Program-made: the position numbers and the translations under genes | Shown: positions 24,521-41,847 of the stretch, in pieces | How positions within the stretch are numbered: the first letter of the stretch is position 1 | How the letters are laid out: the number at the start of each line of letters is the position of its first letter | IMG/VR virus record: IMGVR_UViG_3300023174_000312 | Location: 1-41,847 of that record | Length of the DNA stretch: 41,847 nt | Source of the DNA: a virus | Reading direction: 5' to 3' (one strand) | Notes under the pieces: model-generated | Databases searched by the model: none | The model's input: the letters and a program-made list of their open reading frames with translations, nothing else | What the model was told of the DNA's origin: nothing

Positions 24521-25311
24521 CCCAAGGTGCGCTGATCTTTGCATTCAATAATGAATCTACGGATTACATTGCTATGGCAGCATGGAGTGCAAAGAACATT
24601 CGCAGGCATTTGAACTTGCCCGTGGCCTTGGTCACCGATGATCCTGCGGCTGCCGCACAGTACAAATTTGAACACATCATTGCTACTGTAGCAGACACTG
24701 GCGGCTCAAGACACTTTGCAGATTACAATACCACAGTGACCTGGCACAATGCCGGACGCATCAATGCCTACGAACTGTCACCGTTTGATCAAACCTTGGT
24801 ACTGGATGCTGACTATGTGATAGCCAGTAATAGGCTATTAGAAGTACTAACAATACCACAGCAATTTGCAGCCTTCAAGGATGGGTTTGATCCCAGCAGT
24901 ATGACCAACCTTGAAACATTTGGTGCGTACGATATGCCCATGTGGTGGGCCACTGTGATGATGTTCCGTCGTGGCAACATTAGCCAATACATATTTGATT
25001 CAATGCAAATGATACGCAACAACTGGCAACACTATCGAGACTTGTATGGCATCCACCAAAGCAACTATCGCAATGACTATGCCCTGAGCATTGCCTTGGG
25101 GCTGGTAGCAGGTGCTGAACAATCAGTGCATGAGATATTCTTCCCCTTGCTCAACGTCATGCCAGAACACGGATTGACTTGTGTGGAACAGGATCATTAT
25201 GAAATTACATACACCAACACCGAAGGTCATATCAAAACTCTGAGTTGGGCTGGATTAGATTTTCACGCCATGTGTAAACAGCATTTGGAGGTGATAGTTG
25301 CAGCCCATTGA
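24493..25311 (+). CDS. Putative GT-A-like glycosyltransferase with DAD motif
   Basis: The protein opens with ALIFAFNNESTDYIAMA and a PVALVTDDP strand, then NAYELSPFDQTLVLDADYV. DAD, about 105 residues in, fits the metal- and nucleotide-sugar-binding DxD motif of GT-A folds (GT8-like layout). A later segment (MPMWWATVMMFRR) may be part of the acceptor site. It probably transfers a sugar in the cytoplasm, but donor and acceptor cannot be read. The start is uncertain: ATG at 24481 or 24493, or TTG at 24517, all inside the previous gene; 24493 is used here because a GGAAAG stretch lies just upstream. The next protein is a paralogue in the same fold layout. Confidence 0.62.
   Translation: MGRTEPKALTQGALIFAFNNESTDYIAMAAWSAKNIRRHLNLPVALVTDDPAAAAQYKFEHIIATVADTGGSRHFADYNTTVTWHNAGRINAYELSPFDQTLVLDADYVIASNRLLEVLTIPQQFAAFKDGFDPSSMTNLETFGAYDMPMWWATVMMFRRGNISQYIFDSMQMIRNNWQHYRDLYGIHQSNYRNDYALSIALGLVAGAEQSVHEIFFPLLNVMPEHGLTCVEQDHYEITYTNTEGHIKTLSWAGLDFHAMCKQHLEVIVAAH
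25287..25294 (+). promoter_or_regulatory. Strong ribosome binding site GGAGGTGA that fixes a TTG start
   Basis: GGAGGTGA is a full match to the 16S anti-Shine-Dalgarno sequence. GGAGG ends six bases before the TTG at 25298, and no in-frame ATG is near, which supports TTG initiation for the second glycosyltransferase-like gene. Confidence 0.75.
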
Positions 25312-26065
25312 TGAACAAGGTTACTTAATTGTTGCTGTCAACAGCGACACAGTTGATTATCAGGATTGTGCTAGAACCTTGGCCAAGACCATACGCTACT
25401 GGGATCCGTCTGCACGGATCTGCCTGGTCACAGACAGCTCTTACACTGATCCCTTGTACGATCACCACAGACAACTTGTGCCACAAGCCAATCCTTATGC
25501 CAACGATGCACAACTGTTCCGACTCACACCATTTCGTGAAACTATCAAACTGGAAGCAGATATGTGGATAGTGAGTCCCATTGTACACTGGTGGGATCAG
25601 TTTAGACATCGTGATGTTGTGATATCAACTGGCTGTAGAGATTGGCAGGACAACGTCAGCACAGCAAGAAACTATCGCAGGGTGTTTGACGCTAACAACT
25701 TGCCGGACGTGTACAACGCCGTGACCTATTGGCGGCGCAGTGAAACAGCTCGGGAATTCTTTGGCTGGGTGCGAGACATATTTGCCAACTGGGCAGAGTT
25801 TCGAAAACTCATAAAGTTTCCCGACGAAATACCATCAACTGATCTTGTGTATGCCATGGCCGCAGAGATCATGGGCAGAGATCGAGTCACAATGCCATTT
25901 AGCACATACCCAAAGATAGTGCATATGAAACGACACATAGCAGGAACGCAAACTGAACACTGGTTGGATGAACTGGTGTGGGAATATCAAGACATGCGAC
26001 TGCGCATACAAACTGTGCCACAAACAGGTGCATTTCATTACCGTGTTAAAGATTGGCAAGCATGA
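25298..26065 (+). CDS. Putative GT-A-like glycosyltransferase, paralogue with EAD in place of DxD
   Basis: This is a tandem paralogue of the previous gene. YLIVAVNSDTVDYQDCART aligns with ALIFAFNNESTDYIAMAAW, and ICLVTDS with VALVTDD. At the position of the DxD motif it has ETIKLEADM, so the first Asp is Glu (residues 86-88, EAD). Later segments are DVVISTGCRDWQDN, VYNAVTYWRR and FFGWVRDIF. EAD could still bind metal, but substrate use may differ, or the copy may have lost activity. The TTG start is supported by a perfect GGAGGTGA six bases away, inside the end of the previous gene. Proteins of this type occur beside fibre genes in marine T4-like phages, but I know of no tested substrate. Confidence 0.6.
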   Translation: MQPIDEQGYLIVAVNSDTVDYQDCARTLAKTIRYWDPSARICLVTDSSYTDPLYDHHRQLVPQANPYANDAQLFRLTPFRETIKLEADMWIVSPIVHWWDQFRHRDVVISTGCRDWQDNVSTARNYRRVFDANNLPDVYNAVTYWRRSETAREFFGWVRDIFANWAEFRKLIKFPDEIPSTDLVYAMAAEIMGRDRVTMPFSTYPKIVHMKRHIAGTQTEHWLDELVWEYQDMRLRIQTVPQTGAFHYRVKDWQA

Positions 26066-26397
26066 CCCCTGAAGAGTTTTGGTCTATACTGCACAACATG
26101 CCAGAACCCAGCCCGGTGTTTTATCGTTTGTATCACGATGATCAAGGGCATCCGCTATTCTACAGCATGGCAGATGAACCTGGTACATACATTGAGATTG
26201 ATCAGGAAACTTTTGCTCGCAGTGCCACCAACGTGCGTGTGCGCGACGGCCAGTTGGTAGAAGTAACATGGTCGACCACAACAAAATTGATTCCTGGCAA
26301 CTGTGGCACACCTTGTCATCCCGACAATGTTGCTGTCGTCGTTGCCGAGGATCAACCTCATACCCGCTGGAGTAAACGAACATATGAATCAAATTGA
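26062..26397 (+). CDS. Conserved phage protein of unknown function (111 aa)
   Basis: The N-terminal MTPEEFWSIL is followed by FYRLYHDDQGHPLFYSM and then PGTYIEIDQETFARSATNV. The C-terminus has GTPCHPDNVAVVV and PHTRWSKRTYE. I recognise this arrangement as a conserved hypothetical protein of T4-like cyanophages and relatives, usually near fibre or glycosyltransferase genes. No function is known to me and no catalytic motif is obvious. The ATG at 26062 overlaps the previous stop (ATGA). An in-frame TTG nine bases upstream is less likely. The last 14 bases overlap the next gene. Confidence 0.75.
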   Translation: MTPEEFWSILHNMPEPSPVFYRLYHDDQGHPLFYSMADEPGTYIEIDQETFARSATNVRVRDGQLVEVTWSTTTKLIPGNCGTPCHPDNVAVVVAEDQPHTRWSKRTYESN

Positions 26398-27310
26398 TAT
26401 TGCAGACTTGGACTGTGTATACCTAAGTTACGACGAACCTGAAAAGGAAGAGTTTTGGGTCCGGATCAAAAACATGGTGCCGTGGGCTACCAGAATAGAT
26501 GGCGTCAAAGGGTCTGACGCTGCACACAAGGCCGCAGCCGCAGCCAGCACAACCGAACGTTTTATCTTGATTGATGGTGACAATATTCCTGATGCTGTGT
26601 TCTTTAATCAAACACTGACGTTTGTGACACCGGAGTGGGAACAGGCAGTGTTTCGCTGGCGAGCAAAAAATCACATCAACGGACTCATGTACGGCAATGG
26701 CGGAGTAAGCTCATGGACACGTGAGTTTGTGTTCAACATGCGCACACACGAAGCCACTGATGGTCGTACAGAAACAGAAGTAGAGTTTTGTTTTGATCCG
26801 CTATACTGGCCCATGTACGACTGCTACTCGACCACATATCCCAATGGGTCAGCATTTCAGGCCTGGCGTGCCGGCTTCCGTGAAGGTGTAAAAATGTGCC
26901 TGAACAAAGGCGCACGACCCACAGTAGAACAATTCCAACAACAAGTACACCAACGCAACTTGGATCATTTGACCATTTGGCACAACATTGGTGCTGATGT
27001 CAACAACGGTCAGTGGGCCATGGCCGGCGCAAGGCAAGGTACCTATATGACCATGCTCACAAACTGGGATCACAGACTGGTGCAAGATTTTGATGCCTTG
27101 GCTGAAATTTGGGACAGCGTAAAAGATTCAGATCCAAGACTGTTGGGAGGACGTGTGGCAGATGACCTGTACTCACAGTTGGACTTGCCCATGGCCATAT
27201 TCGAAGGCGAACAAAGTCGATTCTTCAAACATCACTATCGTTCAAACTGGCACAACCGTGGTGTTATGGTCAGAGAGATTGATGTCATTAGACAGCAAGA
27301 AGGCTGGTAA
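26384..27310 (+). CDS. Putative glycosyltransferase-like protein with DGD motif
   Basis: The N-terminal half contains CVYLSYDEPEKEEFW, WATRIDGVKGSDAAHKAA and FILIDGDNIPD. The strand ending in DGD (residues 64-66) has the look of a GT-A DxD site, and the SDAAHKA helix before it is typical of a family widespread in marine T4-like phages. The C-terminal half has FDPLYWPMYDCYSTTYPNG and a GAR-QGTYMTML helix region. It is probably a cytoplasmic sugar transferase; the substrate is unknown. ATG at 26384 is chosen over a possible TTG at 26303, because the 27 extra residues would lie wholly inside the previous gene and read as shadow; GGAG lies 11 bases upstream. The stop shares one base with the first radical SAM gene (TAATG). 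Confidence 0.62.
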   Translation: MNQIDIADLDCVYLSYDEPEKEEFWVRIKNMVPWATRIDGVKGSDAAHKAAAAASTTERFILIDGDNIPDAVFFNQTLTFVTPEWEQAVFRWRAKNHINGLMYGNGGVSSWTREFVFNMRTHEATDGRTETEVEFCFDPLYWPMYDCYSTTYPNGSAFQAWRAGFREGVKMCLNKGARPTVEQFQQQVHQRNLDHLTIWHNIGADVNNGQWAMAGARQGTYMTMLTNWDHRLVQDFDALAEIWDSVKDSDPRLLGGRVADDLYSQLDLPMAIFEGEQSRFFKHHYRSNWHNRGVMVREIDVIRQQEGW

Positions 27311-28707
27311 TGAACAAAGGCGACGAATCTGTAGGTAACAAAAGTAAATTTCTTTTGTCTGCTGAACAGATGAAAGACCAACTGGGCCCTGCACTTTGTC
27401 TAGCCAAATGGAAGCAGGTCAGTTTTCACTTGCCCACTGGACTCAACAACTCATGTTATCATCCACCACTGCATGCTATAGATCCCAAGGCCATTGCGGT
27501 TAACCCCAGTGCGCTACACAATACCGATCACAAAAAGGTCCAACGTCAAATGATGTTGGCAGGAGAGAAGCCTAGTGAATGTCAGTATTGCTGGAACATG
27601 GAAAACGAAGGTAAGTTGAGTGACAGACACTATCGTTCTGGTGAGCCATGGGCCGCAGTGGATTTTGAATCAATAAAGAACAGCACAGGAGCGGAAGATG
27701 TTATCCCCAGTTATGTTGAAGTTAATTTTAATCACGCTTGCAATCTCAAGTGTAGTTATTGTAGCCCTCAGTTCTCAAGTTCATGGCAAGATGAAATTTC
27801 GCGCCTGGGTGCTTACCCTACTAGTCGTCCACACAATGCTCCTGAGCATTTTATGGGACAACGTAGACCAATTCCAGTTCGAGAGTCCAATCCTTATATT
27901 GACGCCTTCTGGTCCTGGTGGCCAGATCTGTATCCACACCTAGAACACTTTCGCATGACTGGCGGTGAGCCACTCATGGACAAGAACACATATCGCGTGT
28001 TTGATTATGTGTTGGCAAATCCCAGTCCCCGACTGCATTTGAATGTGACCAGCAACTTCTCAGTAGACGAGAAGTCGTGGCAAAAGTACCTAGCATACGT
28101 AAAACAAATTTGCGATGGCCGTATCGAACACTTCATGCAGTATGTGAGTTTGGATGGCTGGGGTACTCAAGCAGAATACATGCGGCACGGCTTAGACTTT
28201 GAACTGCTGTGGGACCGAGTAAATCAATTCTTAACAGAAGTACCCAACTATTCAAGTCTTACATTTATCATCACAATGAACAACCTCAGTGTGACTAGTC
28301 TAGACAAGTTATTTGCTGGCATACTGGGACTGCGCAAGGTATACAGCAACACATATCAACGTGTGTGGTTTGACACGCCTGTGTTGCGTGAGCCTGCCTG
28401 GCAGAGTCTACAGATATTGCCCGAAAGTTATGCTGAAAAACTGGAATGGTTGTGGGCCTGGATGGTGCGACAGATTGAAACTGAAGAGGCACCGTTTAAA
28501 GGATTCAAGGACTATGAACTGCATAGACTGGATCGTGACATTGCCTGGATGCGATCAGCACAGTTGACAGATCACTCTAGAGCAAAAGCAGACTTCTATC
28601 GTTTTTTCAGTGAGCATGATCGTCGCCGTGACACAGACTTCTTGAAGACGTTCCCTGAGATGCGGTCATGGTGGGAGGAGTGTGCGTATCATGCTAGGCA
28701 ATCGTAA
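27310..28707 (+). CDS. Radical SAM protein 1, N-terminal twitch-like cluster domain
   Basis: The radical SAM motif CNLKCSYC (Cys144, 148, 151) binds the SAM-coordinating 4Fe-4S cluster, and GGEP follows at 218-221. Upstream of the core lie Cys30, Cys49 (NNSCYHPP) and Cys91/Cys94 (CQYCW), which fit a second cluster in a twitch-like domain placed N-terminal to the core. A conserved LHNTD and an MMLAGEKP helix lie between these cysteines. The C-terminus carries DRRRDTDFLKTFPEM, a motif shared with radical SAM proteins 2 and 5. The 465-residue length suits a core plus one extra domain. The substrate is unknown; this subgroup (1, 2 and 5) shares a KW...SC-H N-terminal pattern. It starts at ATG overlapping the previous stop. 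Confidence 0.85.
   Translation: MNKGDESVGNKSKFLLSAEQMKDQLGPALCLAKWKQVSFHLPTGLNNSCYHPPLHAIDPKAIAVNPSALHNTDHKKVQRQMMLAGEKPSECQYCWNMENEGKLSDRHYRSGEPWAAVDFESIKNSTGAEDVIPSYVEVNFNHACNLKCSYCSPQFSSSWQDEISRLGAYPTSRPHNAPEHFMGQRRPIPVRESNPYIDAFWSWWPDLYPHLEHFRMTGGEPLMDKNTYRVFDYVLANPSPRLHLNVTSNFSVDEKSWQKYLAYVKQICDGRIEHFMQYVSLDGWGTQAEYMRHGLDFELLWDRVNQFLTEVPNYSSLTFIITMNNLSVTSLDKLFAGILGLRKVYSNTYQRVWFDTPVLREPAWQSLQILPESYAEKLEWLWAWMVRQIETEEAPFKGFKDYELHRLDRDIAWMRSAQLTDHSRAKADFYRFFSEHDRRRDTDFLKTFPEMRSWWEECAYHARQS
28673..28680 (+). promoter_or_regulatory. Ribosome binding site GGGAGGAG near two candidate starts
   Basis: GGGAGGAG is a strong Shine-Dalgarno sequence. Its 3' GGAG ends 10 bases before ATG 28691, and its first GGAGG ends three bases before GTG 28682. 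ATG is preferred, since the GTG spacing is too short. Confidence 0.55.
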
Positions 28708-29794
28708 AATCATTGTGGATGAGTGGGCTGAAGTATGGGATCTTTTGAAGCCCTATGCTGATGGTAACTTTTGGCAATGGCCTACAGAACTAGATCCCGA
28801 AGCAGTATACATTGTGGGCAGGGTTGTGTTGAAAGAAAACTGGCAGGCCATAACTGATTGGGCCACACAACATCCTGGGCATATTGTATTTTCCAATCCT
28901 GCTGAAGGCAGTGAAACTATATTGTTACAACTGCGTAGACTAGTAATTGCAAATCATGTACGCGATGGACGTATTGGATTACTAACATCTGGTGACCTAG
29001 AACCAGGATGGAACTACTGCCGAACAGACGGCTACTTTTCCAACATTGTAGAGTATTTGGAAAATCTTGATGCTGCTGCCCACAATGTGCAAACGCAACA
29101 CAAACCCTATGACTTCCTATTTTTAAATGGCCGGCTACGTCCACACCGCAAGTATTTGATAGATGCATTTAGAGAACATAACTTGTTGGATCGTGCGCTA
29201 TGGACCAATCTTGGTGATCGTGTAGAGATGACCTGGAGTAGTGCATTACATACTCAACTTGATGAACCCGTTAGATTGTTGCCTGCACAGTACGAAATTG
29301 CTCGTGCAGTGCCCAACATGGACACGGTTCCTACAGGATTTGTCAAACATCATTTGTTTGGTAACACCTGGGGCGATGCTATCGTAAACCCATTGGCCTA
29401 TGTGGACACCTGTTTTAGTGTAGTGACAGAAACCATATTTGATTATCCTTACACGTTTCGTACAGAAAAGATTTGGAAGCCCATGATCATGTGTCATCCA
29501 TTTGTGACAGCCGCCAATCCAGGATACTATAGAGATTTACACGCAGCAGGATTCCGCACATTTGGTCATTTGATTGATGAATCATTTGATTCAATGGATG
29601 ACCCCGCAGATCGCGCCAATAGAATAGTTGACGTTGTGGCAGATATATGTTACAATGGTGCTGCCAGTTTCTTAGAGTCAGCCAAAGACATTTGTAAATA
29701 CAATTACCAACATCTTCGTGAGCACAATGCTCGCGAACGTGCAGAACTTCCTGACCGATTGACCCAATACATCAATGAACGATTTAGAATTTAA
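28691..29794 (+). CDS. TEKIW-motif protein, possible glycosyltransferase (GT10-like C-terminus)
   Basis: About 367 residues. The C-terminal half has CFSVVTETIFDYPYTF, then TEKIWKPMIMCHPF near residue 258 and a GYYRDLHAAGFRTF segment. A related motif, TEKTWKAVAMQHPF, occurs in the protein at 35866, so the two are paralogues. The 'S/T-EK...HPFV..G.P' pattern recalls the donor-binding region of GT10-type fucosyltransferases, but this is a weak, pattern-level match. An earlier conserved segment is YDFLFLNGRLRPHRKYLID. The sequence shows no membrane segment. It lies between radical SAM 1 and an SGNH-like gene, which supports a role in glycan or glycoconjugate assembly. ATG at 28691 is used; GTG at 28682 is possible. 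Confidence 0.6.
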   Translation: MLGNRKIIVDEWAEVWDLLKPYADGNFWQWPTELDPEAVYIVGRVVLKENWQAITDWATQHPGHIVFSNPAEGSETILLQLRRLVIANHVRDGRIGLLTSGDLEPGWNYCRTDGYFSNIVEYLENLDAAAHNVQTQHKPYDFLFLNGRLRPHRKYLIDAFREHNLLDRALWTNLGDRVEMTWSSALHTQLDEPVRLLPAQYEIARAVPNMDTVPTGFVKHHLFGNTWGDAIVNPLAYVDTCFSVVTETIFDYPYTFRTEKIWKPMIMCHPFVTAANPGYYRDLHAAGFRTFGHLIDESFDSMDDPADRANRIVDVVADICYNGAASFLESAKDICKYNYQHLREHNARERAELPDRLTQYINERFRI

Positions 29795-30494
29795 AAGAGT
29801 ATTAACTAACGGGTGTAGTTTTACTGCTAGATCAAAATATAAAAACTGGCCCGAGCATCTTCCTAATAATTGGAATGTAACAAATATAGCCAGTCATGCT
29901 GCTGGAAATCAGTGGATATGTGATTCGACTATTGTAAAAAGTATAAAAAATGACTATGATTTGGTATTGGTAATGTGGAGCGGATTAACCAGAATTGATG
30001 CACTAGTCAATGAAGTAACTTGGAACCAATTTTGGCAATTTAAAAATCGTAACGACTTAGAGGTACATTACGGGCACTGTGCCATCGGGGACAGCCCAAA
30101 TTTTCCAATGTTAGACATAGCCAAACCAATTATAAAGTTTGGTGGAGTAAGAGAGCTAGTATTTGAATCATTAATGAATATATTGAAGTTACAATCATGG
30201 TTGGAATCAAAAAAAATTGATTATAGATTTATGAGTTTTATGAATTATTGGAATGACAGTTATGTTGAGAATAGGCAAGAATATCCAAGTGTTAAAAATT
30301 TAGGATTAGATACACTAATAAGTGAAATTGATTTCACTAAGTGGATATTCTCTGATGATAAAAAAAACGGACTTTTTGAATTAGCCAAAGATCAAAATTT
30401 TTTATGTGACAAGGATCATATACATCCTAATACACAAGCAGGAAAACTATGGGCCGATATTATTATTAAGAAGATAGAAAATGCCGCAATTTAG
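29775..30494 (+). CDS. SGNH/GDSL-hydrolase-like protein in an AT-rich stretch
   Basis: The N-terminal block is TNGCSFTARS, with Ser15 in the GCSFT position of an SGNH nucleophile. The C-terminal block is DKDHIHPNTQAGKLWAD, with Asp214 and His217 as the DxxH pair. This gives the Ser-Asp-His set of SGNH hydrolases, esterases and acyltransferases acting on acylated sugars or lipids. The middle blocks are less clear, so activity is probable rather than shown. Base use differs sharply from the flanks: positions 30181-30240 have 13 G+C of 60, against 31 of 60 at 27601-27660, and TTA, ATA and AAA codons dominate. This suggests separate acquisition. It overlaps its neighbours by 20 and 14 bases. Confidence 0.68.
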   Translation: MNDLEFKRVLTNGCSFTARSKYKNWPEHLPNNWNVTNIASHAAGNQWICDSTIVKSIKNDYDLVLVMWSGLTRIDALVNEVTWNQFWQFKNRNDLEVHYGHCAIGDSPNFPMLDIAKPIIKFGGVRELVFESLMNILKLQSWLESKKIDYRFMSFMNYWNDSYVENRQEYPSVKNLGLDTLISEIDFTKWIFSDDKKNGLFELAKDQNFLCDKDHIHPNTQAGKLWADIIIKKIENAAI

Positions 30495-31842
30495 TAACAA
30501 AACAGATTTAGAATTTAAACAACAAGTGTTGGACCCTGTGTCCTCAAGTTTTTGTGCGGCAAAATGGTACAATGCTACCATTTGGTTAGGAAGTGGGCAG
30601 ACCACAAGTTGCCATCACCCGCCAGCCCATTTGATTGACATTGATAAAGTCAATAACAACTCTAGGCTGCTGCACAATACTGATGAGAAAAAAGAAGACC
30701 GGCGTAAAATGCTGGCAGGTGAACGTCCTGCAGGTTGCGAATACTGCTGGAAGATAGAAGACATGCATACTGACGCTGTGAGTGACCGTGTGTACAAAAG
30801 TAAAATTTATCCCATAGAGGCCCTAAATGAAGCTGTTAAAACTCCCATCGAACATGATGTCAATCTTAGAACTCTCGAAATTAGTTTCGATCGCACTTGT
30901 CAATTTGCTTGTTCTTATTGCAATCCTGCTTTTAGTTCCACTTGGATCAATGATATCCGGAAACATGGCGCCTATGTCGGATTGGTTAGCGATGGCAGGA
31001 ACCATTTTACTCACACTCATGATAGTAGTCAACTTTATAAATTCGGTGAGACTAATCCGTACGTGGAAGCCTTCTTCGACTGGTGGGAACGAGACCTACA
31101 TCGAACCCTCCAAGAACTTCGAATAACTGGTGGTGAACCCTTGATGTCAGGCTATACCTGGAAACTGATTGAATGGTTCAAGACCAATCAAGGACGTAGC
31201 AATACCAAATTGGCTATCAATTCAAACTTGGGTATTGACATGGACAAGATGAAAGAATTTGCTGTGGCCGTTGCCACACTGCCCAAGGTGGATCTATATA
31301 CCTCAATGGAAGCCACATTTGCACAAGCAGAATACATTCGTGATGGCTTGGACTATGACCAATGGCTCAACAATGTGTTGTTTTTGTTGGAAGGCCAGTT
31401 TGTCAGTGCTGTGCATGTGATGTGTACCATCAATGCCTTGTGCTTGGACAGTATTGTGGATCACCTCAACTTGATGCTAAGTTTGAAACAACGTTATGGC
31501 CGTGACCAAATCAACTTTACCTTGAACATTTTGCGTTTTCCCAGTTTCCAGAGTGCTCTGGTATTGCCTGACCACATACGTAATAATTATAGATTGCAGT
31601 TAGAATCTTGGTTGTTTCGTAATCGTGAAAATCCTTGCCTGCATGAACACGAAATCAATCATGTACAACGCCTGATTGATTATTTGGATGTGGTAAAAAC
31701 TCCGCACTCGGAGGCATTTGACATGCCCAAGTTGTTGAATGACTTTGGGCAGTTTTACACACAGTATGATCAACGCAGAGACAAAGATTTTGCCGGATCA
31801 TTTCCTAACCTAGCAGAATGGTATGACTCAATACAAATATAA
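30481..31842 (+). CDS. Radical SAM protein 2, N-terminal twitch-like cluster domain
   Basis: The core motif is CQFACSYC (Cys140, 144, 147), with ITGGEPLMS placing GGEP at 217-220. The N-terminal four-cysteine set is Cys25, Cys44 (TTSCHHPP), Cys86 and Cys89 (CEYCW), with HNTD and KMLAGERPAG between. This is a close relative of radical SAM 1: KW, SC-HPP, LHNTD, YCW and the C-terminal DQRRDKDFAGSFPNL are shared. The 453 residues show no truncation. The first 14 bases overlap the end of the AT-rich SGNH gene. As with the other copies, a substrate is not evident, but the shared N-terminal domain suggests related substrates or a shared partner. Confidence 0.85.
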   Translation: MPQFSNKTDLEFKQQVLDPVSSSFCAAKWYNATIWLGSGQTTSCHHPPAHLIDIDKVNNNSRLLHNTDEKKEDRRKMLAGERPAGCEYCWKIEDMHTDAVSDRVYKSKIYPIEALNEAVKTPIEHDVNLRTLEISFDRTCQFACSYCNPAFSSTWINDIRKHGAYVGLVSDGRNHFTHTHDSSQLYKFGETNPYVEAFFDWWERDLHRTLQELRITGGEPLMSGYTWKLIEWFKTNQGRSNTKLAINSNLGIDMDKMKEFAVAVATLPKVDLYTSMEATFAQAEYIRDGLDYDQWLNNVLFLLEGQFVSAVHVMCTINALCLDSIVDHLNLMLSLKQRYGRDQINFTLNILRFPSFQSALVLPDHIRNNYRLQLESWLFRNRENPCLHEHEINHVQRLIDYLDVVKTPHSEAFDMPKLLNDFGQFYTQYDQRRDKDFAGSFPNLAEWYDSIQI

Positions 31843-33085
31843 CAGCACTGATTTGGTACGGTCAACAGAACTTACCGAACGTGAGCATTTCTTGCTGACA
31901 GAGTCGAAAACATTTTGCATATATCCCTGGATACACTTGCATGCTTACCCCACAGGTGAAGCATATCCCTGCTGCCATGCTGAAATGAAACCAGGCATTG
32001 TGGGCAACTGTAGAACAAACACTTTAGAGGAAATATGGCATGGCCAGCCCATGCAACAACTACGTGCGGACATGCTGAGTGAAACACCACACGCGGCTTG
32101 CACACGTTGTTATGAACAAGAAGAATCAGGATTTTTCTCAGGACGCAGATCAGCTAACAAACATCATGGACATCACATAAAGAAACTGGATAAGAATCCT
32201 TTTGAAATGACCTATTGGGACATTCGCTTTAGTAACTTGTGTAATTTAAAATGTCGTAGCTGTGGACATATTTTTAGCTCACAGTGGTATCAAGATCAAG
32301 CCAAATTAGCAGGTGATGATTGGAAAGATCGTAACACCGTGCTGAACTATGCAGGTCGAACCGAAACTGACATGTGGGAACAGCTGGAACCACACCTGGA
32401 CTATGTAGAGCAAATATACTTTGCTGGTGGCGAACCCTTGCTGATGGAAGAACACTACCGCATCTTGGAGGAGTTGGTCCGAAGAAAACGTTTTGATGTG
32501 CGATTGATTTACAACACAAATTTTACACACACTGAACTCAAGGGCCGAAGTGTATTTGAATATTGGAAACAGTTCAAAAGTGTAGCAGTGGGCGCCAGTT
32601 TAGATGGCATGGGATTGGTAGCCGAATACATACGCAAAGGTACTCGCTGGGCAGACGTAGTTCAAAATCGTCTTGAAATGATTCGTGTCTGTCCCGAAGT
32701 GGATTTTTACATTTCGCCTACATTGAGTATTATGAATGCTTGGCACCTGCCAGATTTTCATAAAGAGTGGGTGGCGCATGGGTTGATTCAAGCACAAGAC
32801 TTAAATGTGAATATTTTACAAGATCCTGCACACTACAGAATAGACATTGCACCTGCTGAATACAAGCAACGGCTAGAAGAAAAGTATCTAAGACATCTGG
32901 ATTGGATGAGCAACAGAGATCCATTGGGACGAGCCACGCAAGGATTTCAATCAGCTATTCAATTTATGAATGCCTCAGACAACACACATTTGATTGATCA
33001 ATTTTGGAGAAAAACTCATGAGCTAGACGGCATCAGAAATGAAAACATCATGGAAGTTGTTCCAGAATTGGCAGCATTAAAATGA
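31823..33085 (+). CDS. Radical SAM protein 3, N-terminal SPASM-like cluster domain
   Basis: The core motif CNLKCRSC (Cys140, 144, 147) and FAGGEPLL (GGEP at 202-205) identify a radical SAM enzyme. Ahead of it, residues 32-96 read like a SPASM/twitch module: FCIYPWIHLHAYPTGEAY, then CC (50-51), GNCRTNTLEEIWHG, LRADML and CTRC (93-96). In most SPASM enzymes this block follows the core; here it precedes it. The middle has FKSVAVGASLDGM, and the C-terminus ends in ELDGIRNENIMEVVPELAAL, a variant of the C-terminal motif in the other copies. With proteins 4 and 6 it forms the 'PW...CC' subgroup. It overlaps radical SAM 2 by 20 bases and radical SAM 4 by four. Confidence 0.85.
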   Translation: MTQYKYNSTDLVRSTELTEREHFLLTESKTFCIYPWIHLHAYPTGEAYPCCHAEMKPGIVGNCRTNTLEEIWHGQPMQQLRADMLSETPHAACTRCYEQEESGFFSGRRSANKHHGHHIKKLDKNPFEMTYWDIRFSNLCNLKCRSCGHIFSSQWYQDQAKLAGDDWKDRNTVLNYAGRTETDMWEQLEPHLDYVEQIYFAGGEPLLMEEHYRILEELVRRKRFDVRLIYNTNFTHTELKGRSVFEYWKQFKSVAVGASLDGMGLVAEYIRKGTRWADVVQNRLEMIRVCPEVDFYISPTLSIMNAWHLPDFHKEWVAHGLIQAQDLNVNILQDPAHYRIDIAPAEYKQRLEEKYLRHLDWMSNRDPLGRATQGFQSAIQFMNASDNTHLIDQFWRKTHELDGIRNENIMEVVPELAALK

Positions 33086-34293
33086 ATATACCACACGATA
33101 AATTTTGTGTACTACCTTGGGTCAGCATTGAAGCTTCACCAATTGGTACCGTCCGACCTTGTTGTCTTGCTGATGATGAAATCTTAGATGATGCAGGCAA
33201 CAAGTTTGAGTTGAGCACAGCCAACTTTGCAGATATACAAAACAGCAATCACATGCGGCGGCTGCGAGAACAATTTCTTGCAGGTGAACGTCCACAAACA
33301 TGTCGCAAGTGCTGGAACGAAGAGCGCGGTGGCCGCACCAGCAAACGCATGCACACCCTGGATAGACTCAAGCATGCAATTGCGGACACAGAATGGGCTG
33401 CGGATGCCAAGCCCTTGATGTTCTTGGATTTAAAACTGGGCAACATCTGCAACTTGAAATGTCGCATCTGTGGCTCATGGAGTTCGAGTCAATTTGCTAC
33501 AGAAGAAATCAATCAGTTACCACGAGAACAACAAAAGTCAAGCCATGCATACCAAATGTTACGTGCCGGTGCCTGGCCCAGAGAGAATCAGCAGTTCTGG
33601 CAACAGATTGACAGTGTGTTAACAGATATTCGATATATTGAATTCACTGGTGGCGAACCATTCATGATTGACGAACACTTTGATATGTTGCAAGGCATTG
33701 TTGACCGCGGCATTGCCGATCAAGTTGAAATACACTACAACACCAATGGCACACAATGGCCTGAACGTGGCGAAGCAATTTGGCAGCATTTTAAAACTGT
33801 GGAAATTGCATTCAGTATTGATGACATCGGCGACCGCTTTGAGTATCAACGTAGCAATGCCAATTGGCTGGAAGTCTGTGCAAATTTAGATCGTTTCAGA
33901 GATCTCAAAGAATGCCACAAAAACATAGTGTTACAAATCTGTACCACAGTAAACGTATTTAATGTACGTTATCTAGATCAAGTGGCTCGGTGGATTGATC
34001 AAAATAAAGAAAGTTTTAATTTTGTGTATTGGAACATGATGCACGATGCTTGGTATTTTAGTATTGCCACTCTGCCAGATACAACCAAGGCAGCAATCAC
34101 AGAACATTTACGCACAGCAGATGTTCCACCGCAATATCGTGAGGAGTTTGATCGCATTATGGACTTTATGAACACAGGTGCATCAACAGATGGATTTATG
34201 TTGCGCATGAAAATTGCAGACTTGGATCGCAAACGCAATCAAAACTTACGTGACATCGAGCCCGAACTTGCTGATTTAATTGCATATGAATAA
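33082..34293 (+). CDS. Radical SAM protein 4, N-terminal SPASM-like cluster domain
   Basis: The core motif is CNLKCRIC (Cys123, 127, 130), and FTGGEPFM puts GGEP at 190-193. The N-terminal cluster set is Cys9 in FCVLPWVSIEASP, CC at 27-28, and Cys74/Cys77 (CRKCW) after an EQFLAGERPQT helix, the same layout as radical SAM 3. A VEIAFSIDDIGDRFEYQR segment corresponds to the substrate-side strand region of the barrel. The C-terminus (DLDRKRNQNLRDIEPELADL) keeps the shared Arg- and Asp-rich motif followed by PEL. At 403 residues it is the shortest of the six. ATG overlaps the previous stop (ATGA). Confidence 0.85.
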   Translation: MNIPHDKFCVLPWVSIEASPIGTVRPCCLADDEILDDAGNKFELSTANFADIQNSNHMRRLREQFLAGERPQTCRKCWNEERGGRTSKRMHTLDRLKHAIADTEWAADAKPLMFLDLKLGNICNLKCRICGSWSSSQFATEEINQLPREQQKSSHAYQMLRAGAWPRENQQFWQQIDSVLTDIRYIEFTGGEPFMIDEHFDMLQGIVDRGIADQVEIHYNTNGTQWPERGEAIWQHFKTVEIAFSIDDIGDRFEYQRSNANWLEVCANLDRFRDLKECHKNIVLQICTTVNVFNVRYLDQVARWIDQNKESFNFVYWNMMHDAWYFSIATLPDTTKAAITEHLRTADVPPQYREEFDRIMDFMNTGASTDGFMLRMKIADLDRKRNQNLRDIEPELADLIAYE

Positions 34294-35869
34294 TGAATTG
34301 CATATTACCGACACTGACTATGCAAACTTGGCAGGTCCAGAGTGGCCTCTCTATAATGATTTTCTTTCAGGAAACTACAAAGTCAGCAGCACGATAAAAA
34401 AAGAAATAGAACAAGCATTAGAACATGCAAGATCAATTGTTGTTGTTGACGAATGGTATCAAGATATTCCAATTGACAAATTAAGTTTATACGTAACAGC
34501 TGATGATTATATGCTAGGGGCAGGAAACAGTTGGCCCAGTTATGACGATTATATTGCTGGGACGAAGACAACAAATTTGTTGTTACAAAAAGAAATTGAC
34601 AATTTTACAAATAGACATTTAATACAAGGAATCAAATTTCCAATTGACACTGCAACGGCCTGTCAGAGCAAATGGACCTGGAGTACAATTTATTTAAATC
34701 AACTTTCAACGGCCAGTTGCCACAGAGTAAATCCCATTCCTTTTGAATTAAAAGATTTTGATAATTTTCATAACATACCAAAAAAACTCCAAGACCGTAA
34801 ACTGATGTTGCAAGGGCAATGGCCCAAGGGCGGCTGTGAATACTGTCAAGTAATAGAACATGCTGGCGGGCACAGCGATCGTCAACACAATTTAGAAATA
34901 CGGGGATTGACTCCTCCAGAATTAGAAACTGATTCTACTGCCACACATGTAAGTCCGCGCATAGTAGAGATATTTGCACAAAATACCTGCAACTTATCAT
35001 GTATATACTGCAATGGAAATCTAAGCAGTCAAATTGAGCAAGAAAATATCAAACACGGAGAGTTTAATGCCAATGGAGTTAAAATTCCAATAATCACAAC
35101 TCCTACTCAGGCCGCAAAAGAATACTTTGATCGATTTATTTCTTGGCTGGAACGCAATGTAAACACTTTGAGTAGATTGCACTTGCTGGGCGGAGAAACA
35201 TTTATTCAGCACGAATTGATGACCTCCGTGTTGGACATACTAGAAAAAAAACCCAATCCCAACTTGCAGTTTTGCATTTTTAGTAATTTGAATGTGCCAG
35301 ACAGTGCGTGGAATCGTTATGTTCCTCGCATATTAGATTTGCAAAAACAAGGGTATATAAAATATTTTGATTTGACTGCCAGCATTGATTGTTGGGGACC
35401 TGAACAAGAATATGTTCGTTCAGGATTGAATTTAGAAAAGTTTGAAAAACGTTTTGCATGGGCAGCTGATCAAGACCCAACTCGGTTGAGGTTGAATGTA
35501 AATCAAACTGTAACTGGGATGACTGTGAAAACCATGCCAGGTCTGATTGAAAAAATCAAACAATACAGCAAGAACAGACACATTGGGCATTATTTTCAAT
35601 TCTATACTGGAACACACATGTTCCAGCACCCCAACGTATTTGCCTACAGCATGTGGGAAAAAGACTTTGAAACCATACTTGCAACCATGCCAACTGATAC
35701 TCTAGAACAACAAGAAGCTATACCTCGTATGGTTGGGTTACAACGCTATCTTCAACAGACTGTTACGCACAACTCTACGGAGATTAAAAAATTACATGTG
35801 TATCTTGACGAACTAGATCGTCGACGCGGAACAGATTGGCACAAGTTGTTTGGGTATCTAAAAGTATGA
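34286..35869 (+). CDS. Radical SAM protein 5, with N-terminal tandem repeat and GGET variant
   Basis: The 527-residue protein begins with two related ~41-residue repeats (7-47 and 70-110) not seen in the other five. The twitch-like cysteines follow: Cys126, Cys145 (STASCHR), Cys184 and Cys187 (CEYC). The core motif is CNLSCIYC (Cys235, 239, 242). GGEP is replaced by GGET (302-305, LLGGETFI). The C-terminus has ELDRRRGTDWHKLFGYL, the shared motif. It belongs to the subgroup of proteins 1 and 2. The first ~350 bases are more AT-rich than the neighbours, which suggests the repeat domain was added later. ATG at 34286 is chosen; an in-frame TTG six bases earlier adds two residues. Confidence 0.83.
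   Translation: MNNELHITDTDYANLAGPEWPLYNDFLSGNYKVSSTIKKEIEQALEHARSIVVVDEWYQDIPIDKLSLYVTADDYMLGAGNSWPSYDDYIAGTKTTNLLLQKEIDNFTNRHLIQGIKFPIDTATACQSKWTWSTIYLNQLSTASCHRVNPIPFELKDFDNFHNIPKKLQDRKLMLQGQWPKGGCEYCQVIEHAGGHSDRQHNLEIRGLTPPELETDSTATHVSPRIVEIFAQNTCNLSCIYCNGNLSSQIEQENIKHGEFNANGVKIPIITTPTQAAKEYFDRFISWLERNVNTLSRLHLLGGETFIQHELMTSVLDILEKKPNPNLQFCIFSNLNVPDSAWNRYVPRILDLQKQGYIKYFDLTASIDCWGPEQEYVRSGLNLEKFEKRFAWAADQDPTRLRLNVNQTVTGMTVKTMPGLIEKIKQYSKNRHIGHYFQFYTGTHMFQHPNVFAYSMWEKDFETILATMPTDTLEQQEAIPRMVGLQRYLQQTVTHNSTEIKKLHVYLDELDRRRGTDWHKLFGYLKV
34304..34615 (+). repeat. Tandem ~41-residue repeat at the N-terminus of radical SAM 5
   Basis: Repeat 1 (ITDTDYANLAGPEWPLYNDF..., residues 7-47) and repeat 2 (VTADDYMLGAGNSWPSYDDY..., residues 70-110) align without gaps. 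Shared positions include T, D-Y, AG, WP, Y, D, G and KEI. The 22 residues between contain a DEWYQDIPIDKLS linker. The repeat occurs only in this one of the six radical SAM proteins. Confidence 0.6.
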
Positions 35870-36849
35870 GTATGACTACACAAAAAATTAAGTTATTACA
35901 TCACAACACTGAGTACACCCCTCTAACTTCACCAACAAGTCCTGTAGCCAAAATAGTAAATCAATATTTTGATACAGAATACTATGAACCAGGTGTGCAT
36001 TATAATCCGGCAGATACTGTGTTGGTAGTGCCTTTATTCAACACCAATCCGTGGTGGCAATCATTTGTGAACGAAGGATTCAAAATGATCATTGACAATT
36101 TAACAGAGGTACCAGAACTAGTTCGTCATTTTTGGATTTTCACAGACGATCCTCGCGCATTGACATCTAAACCTGTGCCTACGTCTGCAATGGTGTTGCA
36201 AAGTCCTAACTTTTTCCGTTATGAAGACGCATTGAATTGGTTGTCAGCAGGATATGATCAATATAGACCACAACGTAAGTCATTGTACAAAGCATTGTTG
36301 TTGATGAATCGTAGGAAAAAACATCGTACTCAGTTGATTAAAAAATTAGGAACACAACTCGATCAGTGTGTTTGGAGCTATATTGAACAAGGTAAACAAC
36401 TAAATCATGCAGATGTAGTAGATATAAATTGGCAGAGGTATCTCAATCCTGACTGGTTTGATCAGTGTTGTATTAGTATAGTGGCAGAAACATTGACGGA
36501 ACCACCAGTTGATAGAGTACCATTTGTCACTGAAAAAACTTGGAAAGCTGTGGCCATGCAACATCCTTTTGTAGTGCTAGGAGAACCAGGCACATTACAG
36601 TATTTGCACTCTTTGGGATTTGAAACTTTTGAAAATTTATGGTCAGAAGACTATGACACAACACAGTCAACCAAGCGGCGAATTGGCCAAGTTGTAGAGA
36701 ATGTTGTACAATACGACATGGCACCATTGGATAAACTAACATTGAAAAAGATCAAGCACAATCGCAATCATTTTTTTAATCGTGAAATAATTCATCAATT
36801 TGTCATGGACGAAATCGTTAATCCAATTCTTGAATATGCTTCAAAATAA
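35866..36849 (+). CDS. TEKTW-motif protein, paralogue of the gene at 28691
   Basis: This 327-residue protein carries CCISIVAETLTEPPVDR, then TEKTWKAVAMQHPFVVLGE near residue 222 and GTLQYLHSLGFETFENLW. These match the layout of the protein at 28691-29794 (TEKIW, HPFV, LHAAGFRTF), so the two are paralogues. The N-terminal half has TVLVVPLFNTNPWWQSF and a KALLLMNRRKKHRTQLIKKL segment. A sugar-transferase function is possible by analogy with GT10-type C-termini but not proven. ATG at 35866 overlaps the previous stop (ATGA); an upstream TTG at 35836 would add ten residues inside the previous gene and is unlikely. It sits between radical SAM 5 and 6. Confidence 0.58.
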   Translation: MSMTTQKIKLLHHNTEYTPLTSPTSPVAKIVNQYFDTEYYEPGVHYNPADTVLVVPLFNTNPWWQSFVNEGFKMIIDNLTEVPELVRHFWIFTDDPRALTSKPVPTSAMVLQSPNFFRYEDALNWLSAGYDQYRPQRKSLYKALLLMNRRKKHRTQLIKKLGTQLDQCVWSYIEQGKQLNHADVVDINWQRYLNPDWFDQCCISIVAETLTEPPVDRVPFVTEKTWKAVAMQHPFVVLGEPGTLQYLHSLGFETFENLWSEDYDTTQSTKRRIGQVVENVVQYDMAPLDKLTLKKIKHNRNHFFNREIIHQFVMDEIVNPILEYASK

Positions 36850-38131
36850 ATCAAACACACTGTGCATGGCACCATGGGTGCATACTTATTTGAGCCCGTT
36901 GACCGAACGGCGCATGTGCTGTGCGTCAAGAGAACCTGCACAAAACTTTCGTCAGTACATAGACACTGAGTCTGGTAGTAACCGGTATATTCCCATCACA
37001 CTGGATGAACACTGGAACTCACCACACATGATGAGTGTTCGCAGCCGCATGATGGCTGGTGAAACACTGCCCGAGTGCGAAGTGTGCAATGACAAACTGT
37101 TGAACATTGATGTTTACCGCACATATTTTTGGCAATTGTTCAAGCATAAGTACCCTGACATTTGGGAGACCACTGACACAGCAGGACGCACCACAATGCA
37201 GCCTGTGAGTTGGGATTATAGATTTTCAAACCTGTGCAACTTTAAATGTAGAACCTGCGGTGACATGCTGAGTAGCAGTTGGGAAACAGAACAACGACAA
37301 CACAACATGATTGAATGGTCGGACCCCAACAACAATTGGATGCGCCCTGAAGTGAGATCGACTATCACTGCATTTCAAGACAGCCAGATCGAAGCGGAGT
37401 TTGCCGAGGCAGTAGAACAGCATCGTGTTGAAGAAGTATACTGGGTAGGCGGCGAACCCTTGATGTACGAACAACATTGGCGTTACATGAAACGCATAGT
37501 TGAATTAGGGGACGGACCAAAGGTATATGCTAGATACAATACAAATTTATCCAGAGTGGATTATCGAGGTGTTAACTTATATCGCGATATTCTCAGCGGG
37601 CTGCGCGATTGGCAGATATGTGCAAGTCTCGACGGCACAGGCACAATTGGCGAATACATTAGAACAGGCCTTGACTACCATCGCTGGCTTGACAATTTTG
37701 GTGCGGCAGTTGCGATCCAACGTAACCGACGTCAAGTACGAATTGACTTTACGCTCACTCTGCCCGGAATGTTCGAAGTTACACGCATTAAACAACTTGC
37801 CCAAGAATATGGAGTCGAAGTCCTGGCTAAAGTAATGTTTTCATTCTCGCCTAACATTGTGATGAGTCCATTGGCCTTGCCTAGACATTTATTAGAACCT
37901 TGGATAGATGAACTTGTGCCTCAAGTGGATGGTGCGTTACGTGACATGCTGACACAGTTAAAAACCCGTCAGACTTTTGAAGAACAATGGCCAGATTCTT
38001 ACCGTCGAGGCCTTGCAAGTGGCCGAGATCGTGTGTTACAATTAGAAAGCATACGCACACAGAAGATCACAATGAGTGAAATACTTGCTGATCGTCCTGC
38101 GGTGCTAGAATGGTGGAACAACATTGCTTGA
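36836..38131 (+). CDS. Radical SAM protein 6, N-terminal SPASM-like cluster domain
   Basis: The core motif is CNFKCRTC (Cys134, 138, 141), and WVGGEPLMYEQHW puts GGEP at 205-208. The N-terminal set is Cys10 in LCMAPWVHTYLSP, CC at 28-29 (RRMCCASRE) and Cys81/Cys84 (CEVC) after a SRMMAGETLPE helix, the pattern of radical SAM 3 and 4. Further motifs are ICASLDGTGTIGEYIR and VLAKVMFSFSPNIVMSP. The C-terminus ends differently from the others (SEILADRPAVLEWWNNIA). ATG at 36836 overlaps the previous gene by 14 bases; a TTG at 36800 would add 12 shadow residues. The stop overlaps the next gene's TTG start region by eight bases. Confidence 0.85.
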   Translation: MLQNKSNTLCMAPWVHTYLSPLTERRMCCASREPAQNFRQYIDTESGSNRYIPITLDEHWNSPHMMSVRSRMMAGETLPECEVCNDKLLNIDVYRTYFWQLFKHKYPDIWETTDTAGRTTMQPVSWDYRFSNLCNFKCRTCGDMLSSSWETEQRQHNMIEWSDPNNNWMRPEVRSTITAFQDSQIEAEFAEAVEQHRVEEVYWVGGEPLMYEQHWRYMKRIVELGDGPKVYARYNTNLSRVDYRGVNLYRDILSGLRDWQICASLDGTGTIGEYIRTGLDYHRWLDNFGAAVAIQRNRRQVRIDFTLTLPGMFEVTRIKQLAQEYGVEVLAKVMFSFSPNIVMSPLALPRHLLEPWIDELVPQVDGALRDMLTQLKTRQTFEEQWPDSYRRGLASGRDRVLQLESIRTQKITMSEILADRPAVLEWWNNIA

Positions 38132-39149
38132 TAGAATTGAAATAGACCTACGTGGCGCACACACGCTCACACTGTACATTGATGTCTCAGACAACAGTCT
38201 CAGTCGTAAATGGCTGACAGCATTGAACAACATCATACGTGATGATCTGCATTTGGAAAAGAATTATTGTTGGATGGGCTGGACCGAGAGTCCTCGCAAC
38301 GCCGAATACATCATCAATCAAATCAACGCCAGTATTGCGGTCATCAACACAGCCAATCTGGGTTATACCATCGATGATCATTTCACAGTAGAAGGCACCA
38401 TACAAGACAATCTAGACGTTAACCATGAACGTATGAATTGGTTGCATCGATACTTTGAAGATTTACAAGGGCACTCGGGCCATATGAGTGCTTACTGGAA
38501 AAACGCCAACGCCGTCACACGCTGGCACATACGTCAACTGAACTTGCTGTGTCACGAGTACGAAAGCCTTGTGCTCAGCATGCGCAAAGTCATACAAGCA
38601 CCTGAGTGGCGTAGACCCAGCCAGCTGATGTGTTGGCTTAACGCACCACGTTTTGCATTGGATGTTGAAGATTATGAATTGTTTGGAATTGAAACAATAA
38701 ATCGCAAAATGGGCGGAGTATATGTTGGAGTCAACAAAGCAGTGAGTAAAACACACTGGGAAGTGTTCAATGACGAAGGCACTGGAATAGATCAACTGAT
38801 AACAACCAGTATGCGCAATCAAATTGAAGCCGCTGGAGATTTTGATATTGAATGGGCTAGAGATCCCGGTGCATATGAATGGCAAATTAAAAAATTAGTT
38901 GAGTTTAGACAATGGCTAACAGTAAATGGATTTGATCCTGAAGACCGATCATTGACCATTGGTCATCCTAAGGTGGCCCAAGTCAATCTTGCCAAAACAT
39001 TTGGCACCCTGGATTACAATCAAATCTGGCAGCAGCTGGGCACACATTTGGATGTGTATAAAATACGCACCAGCGACGCCGAAACTACATATAAATATTG
39101 CTGGAGCGATGCAGACTACGCTGAACAGCAAATAAGGAGATTGAAATGA
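38124..39149 (+). CDS. Conserved phage protein of unknown function (341 aa), probable TTG start
   Basis: I recognise the style of this protein from T4-like cyanophages and relatives. The N-terminal segment SDNSLSRKWLTALNNII is followed by LEKNYCWMGWTESPRNAEYI, and the C-terminus has LTIGHPKVAQVNLAKTFG and a final CWSDADYAEQQI. It is probably soluble and helical; no catalytic motif or membrane segment is visible, and no function is known to me. No ATG lies in the first 90 residues, so TTG at 38124, with GGTGGA six bases upstream, is the best start. A TATAAATA motif lies at 39090-39097 within its 3' end. It overlaps radical SAM 6 by eight bases and the small gene downstream by four. Confidence 0.7.
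   Translation: MLDRIEIDLRGAHTLTLYIDVSDNSLSRKWLTALNNIIRDDLHLEKNYCWMGWTESPRNAEYIINQINASIAVINTANLGYTIDDHFTVEGTIQDNLDVNHERMNWLHRYFEDLQGHSGHMSAYWKNANAVTRWHIRQLNLLCHEYESLVLSMRKVIQAPEWRRPSQLMCWLNAPRFALDVEDYELFGIETINRKMGGVYVGVNKAVSKTHWEVFNDEGTGIDQLITTSMRNQIEAAGDFDIEWARDPGAYEWQIKKLVEFRQWLTVNGFDPEDRSLTIGHPKVAQVNLAKTFGTLDYNQIWQQLGTHLDVYKIRTSDAETTYKYCWSDADYAEQQIRRLK
39090..39097 (+). promoter_or_regulatory. Internal late-promoter motif TATAAATA
   Basis: A perfect 8/8 match to the T4 late consensus lies inside the 3' end of the gene at 38124-39149, 48 bases before the 33-residue gene. It could restart late transcription of the small gene, the second SGNH-like gene, the carbamoyltransferase and the FkbM gene. 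A chance match in coding DNA remains possible. Confidence 0.45.
39134..39139 (+). promoter_or_regulatory. Ribosome binding site AAGGAG for the 33-residue gene
   Basis: AAGGAG ends six bases before ATG 39146, optimal spacing. It is one of the clearest Shine-Dalgarno sites in the right-hand block and supports the short gene being translated. Confidence 0.7.
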
Positions 39150-39247
39150 ACTGGATACGCAGGATTTGGGACAGAATCACATTGGAAATACGTTATCGTA
39201 AAAAATTAAAAGAACTTCGCAAACGTGATCCGTTTATCTACAAATGA
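39146..39247 (+). CDS. Very small basic protein (33 aa) with DPFIYK C-terminus
   Basis: ATG at 39146 opens a 33-residue frame starting MNWIRRIWDRITLEIRYRKK and ending RKRDPFIYK. It is strongly basic, with an amphipathic helix pattern (Trp, Ile and Leu on one side, Arg and Lys on the other), and could bind nucleic acid, membrane or a protein partner. I recall similar short proteins with a KKL...KRDPFIY ending in marine T4-like phages. Support for a real gene is strong: an ideal AAGGAG site, ATGA overlaps at both ends (previous stop and next start) and a late-promoter motif just upstream. Function unknown; a peptide substrate for the radical SAM enzymes is an untested idea. Confidence 0.75.
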   Translation: MNWIRRIWDRITLEIRYRKKLKELRKRDPFIYK

Positions 39248-41606: not shown

Positions 41607-41847
41607 TTAAATCTACAAAAACTAGATACAGTGACAATTTCAGCTACTACACCACCGATGAAATGATTGGGCGCAGTTTAGATCTCTACGGAGAGTACAG
41701 TCAATTTGAACTGGAATTTTTGTTGGCCATGCTGAACGAAAATTCCGTGGTCTACGATATAGGAGCCAACATAGGTTACCACACCACAGCATTTGCCAGT
41801 GTGGTCAAGAAAGTTTATGCGTTTGAACCGCATCCTAAAAATTATGC
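41603..41847 (+). CDS. FkbM-type methyltransferase, 5' part (runs off the right edge)
   Basis: The visible ~81 residues start MIKSTKTRYSDNFSYYTTDE. They contain VVYDIGANIGYHTTAFA, the SAM-binding glycine motif, and VYAFEPHPKNY, the acidic second motif. Both are typical of FkbM-family O-methyltransferases, which methylate sugar hydroxyls. The 3' end and most of the catalytic domain are outside the window. ATG overlaps the carbamoyltransferase stop (ATGA). Confidence 0.82.
   Translation, partial: MIKSTKTRYSDNFSYYTTDEMIGRSLDLYGEYSQFELEFLLAMLNENSVVYDIGANIGYHTTAFASVVKKVYAFEPHPKNY

Follow-up and report, generated by a model that had tools for sequence, protein, structure and literature searches.

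A conserved operon of N-terminal-twitch radical SAM enzymes behind the tail genes of a jumbo myophage, with a possible role in a phage-encoded carbamoylated glycan

Radical S-adenosylmethionine (SAM) enzymes of phages are usually regarded as products of dispersed auxiliary genes. A T4-like marine virus (TARA_ERS488813_N000010) carries 12 such genes (PMC5332604), Aeromonas phage 332-Vera harbors eight within its structural cluster, an arrangement called highly unusual (PMC12390700), and the hypervariable regions of pelagimyophages carry radical SAM cassettes (PMC7029224). The annotation of these proteins in phages is sometimes doubtful, for example as AhbD (PMC9301287), and a survey published in 2025 lists four core glycosyltransferases for a new lineage of aquatic jumbo phages, with no mention of radical SAM enzymes (PMC12619734). 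Described here is an operon with six radical SAM genes in a 41.8-kb IMG/VR virus record (IMGVR_UViG_3300023174_000312, positions 1 to 41,847), the whole of which is referred to as the window. A preliminary description of this DNA set six such genes in tandem against the single ones that occur in phages; that tandem genes are unprecedented in phages is not supported, given the 12 and eight genes on record in the sources above. What sets the operon apart is that five of its radical SAM enzymes form a fixed set of paralogs, linked in relatives to amino-sugar genes.

The six genes are separate full-length open reading frames on the plus strand, with mostly overlapping ends: R1 (27310-28707), R2 (30481-31842), R3 (31823-33085), R4 (33082-34293), R5 (34280-35869), and R6 (36800-38131). 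All six exceed, over their full length, the curated cut-off (170 bits) of NF033640, the NCBIfam family of N-terminal-twitch (N_Twi) radical SAM proteins, with scores of 319, 291, 397, 342, 191, and 267 bits, respectively (191-397 bits, E-values of 3e-56 to 7e-119). A search of the whole record with this profile returns exactly these six and nothing more, so that the array is not a chance reading. The CxxxCxxC and GGEP/GGET motifs, already noted in the preliminary description, are present in all of them together with four N-terminal cysteines. R1 shares 20-34% identity with the other five, and 22 invariant columns are kept, including the four N-terminal cysteines, CxxxCxxC, GGE, and EYxR. Two [4Fe-4S] clusters and SAM cleavage are predicted for R1 to R6 from family membership. 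The preliminary description made its reading depend on viable SAM pockets in structure models; at the level of motifs, all six keep viable cluster sites: the seven cysteines of the core and auxiliary sites and the GGE motif are invariant in every ortholog group (15-81 orthologs per gene).

A scan of IMG/VR with R4 yielded 80 loci (71-94% identity), onto which the genes of the window were mapped. The records compared are mutually related and mostly incomplete, and the label "freshwater" used below is our reading of the matching contigs, not a sample-by-sample assignment. In nearly all complete relatives, a fixed order is kept behind the tail genes: GTa-GTb-GTc-R1-TEK1-R2-R3-R4-(variable slot)-R6-38124-CARB, in which GTa to GTc are glycosyltransferase-like, TEK1 is a TEK-motif protein, 38124 is an orphan protein, and CARB is an O-carbamoyltransferase. 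R5 and TEK2, a second TEK-motif protein, sit in variable slots, while the SGNH-like genes SGNH1 and SGNH2 are mostly missing from the 80 loci. The core thus comprises R1, R2, R3, R4, and R6, and R5, TEK2, SGNH1, and SGNH2 are accessory; the six had been taken as one set, which holds for five of them. In relatives, these five keep both their order and their neighbours; the dispersed, unlinked genes that the preliminary description had named as refuting its reading are not what is seen.

A second scan, with 38124, gave a contig set overlapping that of the first. R6 lies directly upstream of 38124 in 68 of 69 loci, which contain four to eight radical SAM genes each. The two genes overlap in all 72 loci measured, by a median of 8 nt, and the other core junctions mostly overlap as well, which argues for one operon. 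In the divergent loci L131, L147, L149, L152, and L155-L158 (numbers designate IMG/VR loci), TEK1 is lost, whereas R1, R2, R3, R6, and 38124 are kept, as is CARB except in L131. No R4 relative was found in 84,980 bacterial and archaeal genomes by the two patterns used, and these genomes therefore give no clue to the host. Among 50,697 named phages, tblastn searches with R1, TEK1, and 38124 returned no match, and that with R4 only three weak records.

In a tree of 140 radical SAM proteins, R1, R2, R3, R4, and R6 form one clade each, with Shimodaira-Hasegawa-like approximate likelihood ratio test (SH-aLRT) values of 99-100 (100 for R1 and R6, 99 for R2). The KW...SCxH (R1, R2, R5) and PW...CC (R3, R4, R6) subgroups, first recognised from their N-terminal patterns, split on this tree with values up to 100. 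Ratios of nonsynonymous to synonymous substitution rates (dN/dS) of the core genes against three relatives range from 0.05 to 0.16 (R1, 0.06-0.08; R2, 0.09-0.13; R3, 0.05-0.08; R6, 0.11-0.16), i.e., strong purifying selection, with synonymous sites near saturation. Because of the single clades, these low ratios, and the invariant cluster cysteines, the five core enzymes are, judged from their sequences, ancient paralogs with distinct retained functions rather than recent copies.

Structurally, the SPASM/twitch match of these proteins is N-terminal (Pfam; positions 32-97 in R3 and 9-78 in R4), not C-terminal as in SPASM enzymes. The R3 profile matches the twitch domain of BtrN (residues 184-256) weakly (E 3.9e-4), through the auxiliary domain only and at the opposite end of the protein, and the R3 core resembles anSME in profile comparison. 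The R3 model (predicted local distance difference test, pLDDT, of 79) matches generic radical SAM folds, including BlsE and SPASM enzymes, so that the reaction cannot be read from the structure. None of the six has a Pfam match to an RRE/PqqD domain (RRE, RiPP recognition element; RiPP, ribosomally synthesised and post-translationally modified peptide), which divergent RREs could escape. The prokaryotic viperin (pVip) profile NF038283 gives at best 34.9 bits against a cut-off of 180. R5 starts with a duplicated module (about residues 15-125, window positions 34280-34660) of the pattern D-Y-...-G-P-x-W-P-x-Y-...-G-...-E-I, a single copy of which stands at the front of other R5 orthologs and of an unrelated radical SAM protein in the same region of another locus (L076:8661-10001); this distribution suggests a docking module. 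A natural fusion of two complete tandem N_Twi units in one 819-residue frame occurs in the same operon of another record (G014:C1:63352-65715).

The core ends with CARB (40122-41606, plus strand), an O-carbamoyltransferase of the NodU/TobZ/NovN type (PF02543, PF16861). Its nearest characterised relatives are the sugar and antibiotic O-carbamoyltransferases NovN (NovN-type, 1e-55), GdmN, and TobZ (2e-33). The window ends just past CARB; beyond this point, the conserved genes that come next in relatives point towards the operon. In all ten relatives inspected, these convergent genes follow the order of two TEK-type genes, a large GTc-related protein, a DegT aminotransferase, a nucleoside diphosphate (NDP)-sugar dehydratase/epimerase, and then ThyX; an amidinotransferase stands ahead of the TEK-type genes in nine of them. 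DegT (PF01041) and the epimerase/dehydratase (PF01370) are found side by side in 15 of 15 jumbo-phage records, where DegT is encoded on the strand opposite to R6, at a distance of 6.8-16.8 kb by the coordinates. The best PDB match of DegT is glutamine-scyllo-inositol transaminase (1.5e-46). The amidinotransferase (d11 in the relatives) matches AGAT (1.6e-14) and StrB1 (3.7e-11), with Asp, His, and Cys aligned with the catalytic triad of AGAT. It is encoded by all 13 closest relatives of the window at 84-87% identity, and DegT is found in nine of these 13 records, several of the other four being short.

These neighbours favor a reading in which a glycan of unusual chemistry is synthesised and attached by a conserved jumbo-phage locus, of which the region forms the upstream half, the radical SAM enzymes acting on the sugar or on the assembled glycan and the virion being the likeliest acceptor; its chances are judged about even. 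The glycan would be carbamoylated and probably guanidino-amino, its substrate being inferred from the gene content. The pathway would begin with oxidation of an NDP-sugar to a keto sugar by the dehydratase, followed by DegT transamination to an amino sugar and by conversion of the amine to a guanidine by the amidinotransferase. The glycosyltransferase-like proteins would place the sugars into a glycan, CARB would cap a hydroxyl as a carbamate, and the FkbM-like gene at the window end would add an O-methyl group. The radical SAM enzymes, each with a four-cysteine auxiliary [4Fe-4S] site, would abstract hydrogen atoms from the sugar or assembled glycan (epimerisation, dehydrogenation, or deoxygenation), and the accessory slots (R5, TEK2, SGNH, methyltransferase) may vary the product between phages. 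The tail or baseplate of the virion is the likeliest acceptor from the operon position only, the host surface being a second choice.

Independent support for a glycan pathway comes from the linked DegT, dehydratase/epimerase, and amidinotransferase genes just outside the window. It gains from the relationship of CARB to NovN, GdmN, and TobZ and from the weak match of the R3 N-terminal domain to the twitch domain of BtrN, an aminocyclitol dehydrogenase. It also gains from a second sugar-like site of the same phages (L172, L176, L178), where the neighbourhood of other N_Twi enzymes includes a GalE epimerase and a DegT-like protein of half length, joined in L176 by a methyltransferase. The preliminary description had proposed a multi-step radical pathway on a glycan, glycoprotein, or peptide, of which the glycan is the candidate now favored by these linked genes.

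Several points weigh against this reading. Substrate and reaction are assigned by inference, and the glycosyltransferase calls are motif-based, with no Pfam, GT10, or PDB match. Twitch and SPASM radical SAM enzymes modify peptides as often. The BtrN match is weak and confined to the auxiliary domain, and some radical SAM copies of the same phages belong to modules for replication and packaging that have no sugar genes. The sugar genes themselves form a separate transcription unit on the opposite strand, read in relatives and outside the window, and the 15 of 15 records amount to conservation, not to 15 independent events, since they are related. A bolder version is held more tentatively: a virus-encoded line of five radical SAM steps would lead to a hitherto unknown glycan on the tail (or a hybrid of it bound to protein), both guanidinylated and carbamoylated, conserved across a freshwater jumbo-phage lineage, with 38124 as obligate partner of one of the enzymes.

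The remaining genes of the operon, all on the plus strand, are less clearly assigned. GTa (24481-25311) has an invariant DxD motif (DAD) and no Pfam or PDB match, GTb (25298-26065) matches phrog_1903 (unknown function, E 5e-11), and GTc (26303-27310, likely start about 26378) has an invariant DGD and no PDB match; all three are conserved in the operon. TEK1 (28682-29794), near-core and absent from the divergent loci, is a possible GT-B glycosyltransferase, and TEK2 (35836-36849) was placed in its variable slot by locus mapping. For GTa, GTb, GTc, and the TEK proteins, the glycosyltransferase label comes solely from DxD/TEK motifs. GTa and GTc were rejected as PDB-matched glycosyltransferases; for the TEK proteins, the PDB gave no match, and neither did PF00852 (GT10) in 15 records with the threshold relaxed to E 10. 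SGNH1 (29775-30494) is SGNH/DUF6071-like (PF19547, E 1.6e-4, below cut-off), and SGNH2 (39244-40125) is SGNH-like by motif reading, with no Pfam match. The window end cuts the start of an FkbM-like methyltransferase gene (41603-41847; PF05050, E 0.005, below cut-off). The interleaved SGNH-like gene and two TEK genes of the preliminary description are thus present; of the sugar-modifying neighbours it named, the carbamoyltransferase is confirmed by its domains, whereas the glycosyltransferase stays a motif call and the methyltransferase falls below the cut-off.

The orphan protein 38124 (38124-39149), tied to R6, yields a confident model (pLDDT 87) with no fold match in the PDB. Its ten good model matches are all phage proteins, one of them a 768-residue protein that contains the domain as a part. 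The matching phage models include, at a moderate structural level, one of 300 residues from Agrobacterium phage Atu_ph07 (A0A2L0UZJ4), likened to Atu_ph07 gp166 by equal length (300 residues) and a weak collinear alignment only. A gp55-like protein near a scattered radical SAM gene, with a KNxYCW motif, was ruled out as a 38124 relative by its full sequence and profile comparison.

Upstream of the operon lie the genes of a baseplate. From these, and from its wedge protein, which is 33% identical to the counterparts in Atu_ph07, Phosso, and PBECO4-like jumbo phages, the source is a T4-like jumbo myophage, in agreement with the phage origin proposed earlier. The T4-like baseplate wedge subunit (1478-4957; phrog_10646, E 3e-274) is followed by a giant virion structural protein of 5212 residues (4957-20595; phrog_10938, E 3e-230 and 1e-62), a single open frame rich in threonine and almost devoid of cysteine and histidine. 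Next come a virion structural protein (21397-23187; phrog_14394, E 4e-11), found upstream of the operon in relatives too, and a probable tail protein (23207-24157) that recurs directly upstream of the operon; all four are on the plus strand.

This position directly behind tail genes underlies the main rival to the glycan reading, in which the radical SAM enzymes are post-translational maturases of a virion tail protein (RiPP-like crosslinks, epimers, or desaturations), 38124 is an adaptor, and the sugar genes belong to a separate neighbouring pathway. It is considered possible, if rather unlikely. The same site in Atu_ph07 and Phosso, following the genes for the baseplate wedge and the giant virion protein, holds at least three radical SAM genes. 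One of their products, gp171 of Atu_ph07, matches the peptide maturases DynA, PapB, and DarE (6e-12) and is followed by a protein ending in CHxSCHASCHxSRSRR. A conserved trio of a cupin (unnamed in Phosso), a SPASM radical SAM enzyme, and a protein ending in CHxSCHxSCHxxRxRR is present in Atu_ph07, Phosso, FLC6, and pPa_SNUABM_DT01 (L088:25315-28647, L167:26415-29015, L199:11498-13620, L200:11480-13561), and the 46-residue DT01 tail as a query also retrieves FLC8 and SURPRISE13. The trio looks like a RiPP-type maturation of the C-terminus of a virion-like protein; in the literature, the CHxSCH motif gave unrelated name matches only. Tail-protein maturation is thus a serious alternative for phage radical SAM arrays in general, and for the window it is further favored by peptide maturases among the R3 fold matches and by the resemblance of 38124 to the gp166-length Atu_ph07 model. 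That last link is weakened by a gp166-38124 profile match of only E 0.19, however, and the radical SAM enzymes of Atu_ph07 and the chimallinviruses are C-terminal-SPASM proteins of another subfamily. No CHxSCH tail and no convincing cysteine-rich C-terminus was found in more than 160 freshwater loci, nor an RRE by Pfam. Because the core genes usually overlap, a precursor gene could not be accommodated at their junctions. The tail protein at 23207-24157, the candidate protein substrate in this reading, was tried as a core peptide and lacks a strikingly conserved C-terminus (conservation of 0.77, against about 0.68 elsewhere, a slight difference only).

Less probable is a moron hotspot, where unrelated radical SAM genes gather without sharing a pathway, as cargo that is selfish or only loosely useful. 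Each related jumbo-phage record contains 5-19 N_Twi genes, many of them scattered, together with other radical SAM families, and R5, TEK2, and SGNH come and go. Some of the scattered genes lie between gp46 and gp47, others near terminase, gp32, and UvsX genes; in L170, L179, L182, and L184, N_Twi and other-family members stand between or beside gp47 (Mre11-like) and gp46 (Rad50-like), with a GIY-YIG-like gene adjoining. A pure hotspot is nevertheless largely contradicted by the order, overlap, and orthology of the five core genes and by their strong purifying selection at near-saturated synonymous sites.

DNA hypermodification, in which a hydroxymethyl pyrimidine would be carbamoylated and glycosylated with the radical SAM enzymes in the pathway, is very improbable: radical SAM genes can occur in phage hypermodification clusters, and a ThyX gene lies near the dehydratase/epimerase, but this ThyX is an ordinary Thy1-family protein, and PF00303 is absent from all 15 records of 148-349 kb. 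Carbamoyltransferases with PF02543/PF16861 do modify 5-hydroxymethylcytosine in some phages, but there they are accompanied by PF00303, which makes the hydroxymethyl pyrimidines, while unmodified contigs pair them with glycosyltransferases, apparently as here (PMC8670742); the reading is disfavoured on this account.

Phage radical SAM genes are here seen as five ancient paralogs in one operon with an amino-sugar link, so that the observation of many such genes in phages becomes a pathway open to testing, its parts list defined. If the glycan reading is true, it would be a virus-encoded radical-enzyme glycan pathway, bearing on host recognition or virion shielding in jumbo phages, and could supply new C-H chemistry on carbohydrates. 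The operon also predicts a functional class for the uncharacterised TEK, GTa to GTc, and 38124 proteins. No paper joining radical SAM enzymes, carbamoyltransferase, and jumbo phage, or describing this operon, was found; the conserved operon and its tie to amidino- and amino-sugar genes look undescribed in the literature searched, within the known kinds of phage radical SAM clusters and virion or surface glycans.

Compared with known systems, the locus shares with the multi-radical-SAM phages (PMC5332604, PMC12390700, PMC7029224) the accumulation of such genes in a single tailed phage, some of them within structural regions; the passages of their reports consulted here describe no conserved N_Twi operon, paralog structure, or amino-sugar, amidino, or carbamoyl link. 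All six proteins belong to NF033640 by curated score; that family has no assigned reaction, and the window is a special arrangement within it, with five fixed paralogs in one operon. The SPASM radical SAM clusters of Agrobacterium phage Atu_ph07, Sinorhizobium phage Phosso, Burkholderia phage FLC6, and Pseudomonas phage pPa_SNUABM_DT01 also place several radical SAM genes beside jumbo-phage virion genes, and Atu_ph07 and Phosso have the baseplate locus, and perhaps a 38124-like protein, in common with the window. They differ by their radical SAM subfamily and by their own cupin and CHxSCH-tailed protein, and neither carbamoyltransferase nor TEK is annotated in the regions viewed. Aminoglycoside and guanidino-sugar pathways (BtrN or DesII-type radical SAM, StsC/DegT, StrB1, TobZ) likewise bring DegT, amidinotransferase, O-carbamoyltransferase, and a twitch radical SAM enzyme side by side. 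In contrast to these, to which its homology is low-level, the locus is phage-encoded and its auxiliary twitch is N-terminal instead of C-terminal.

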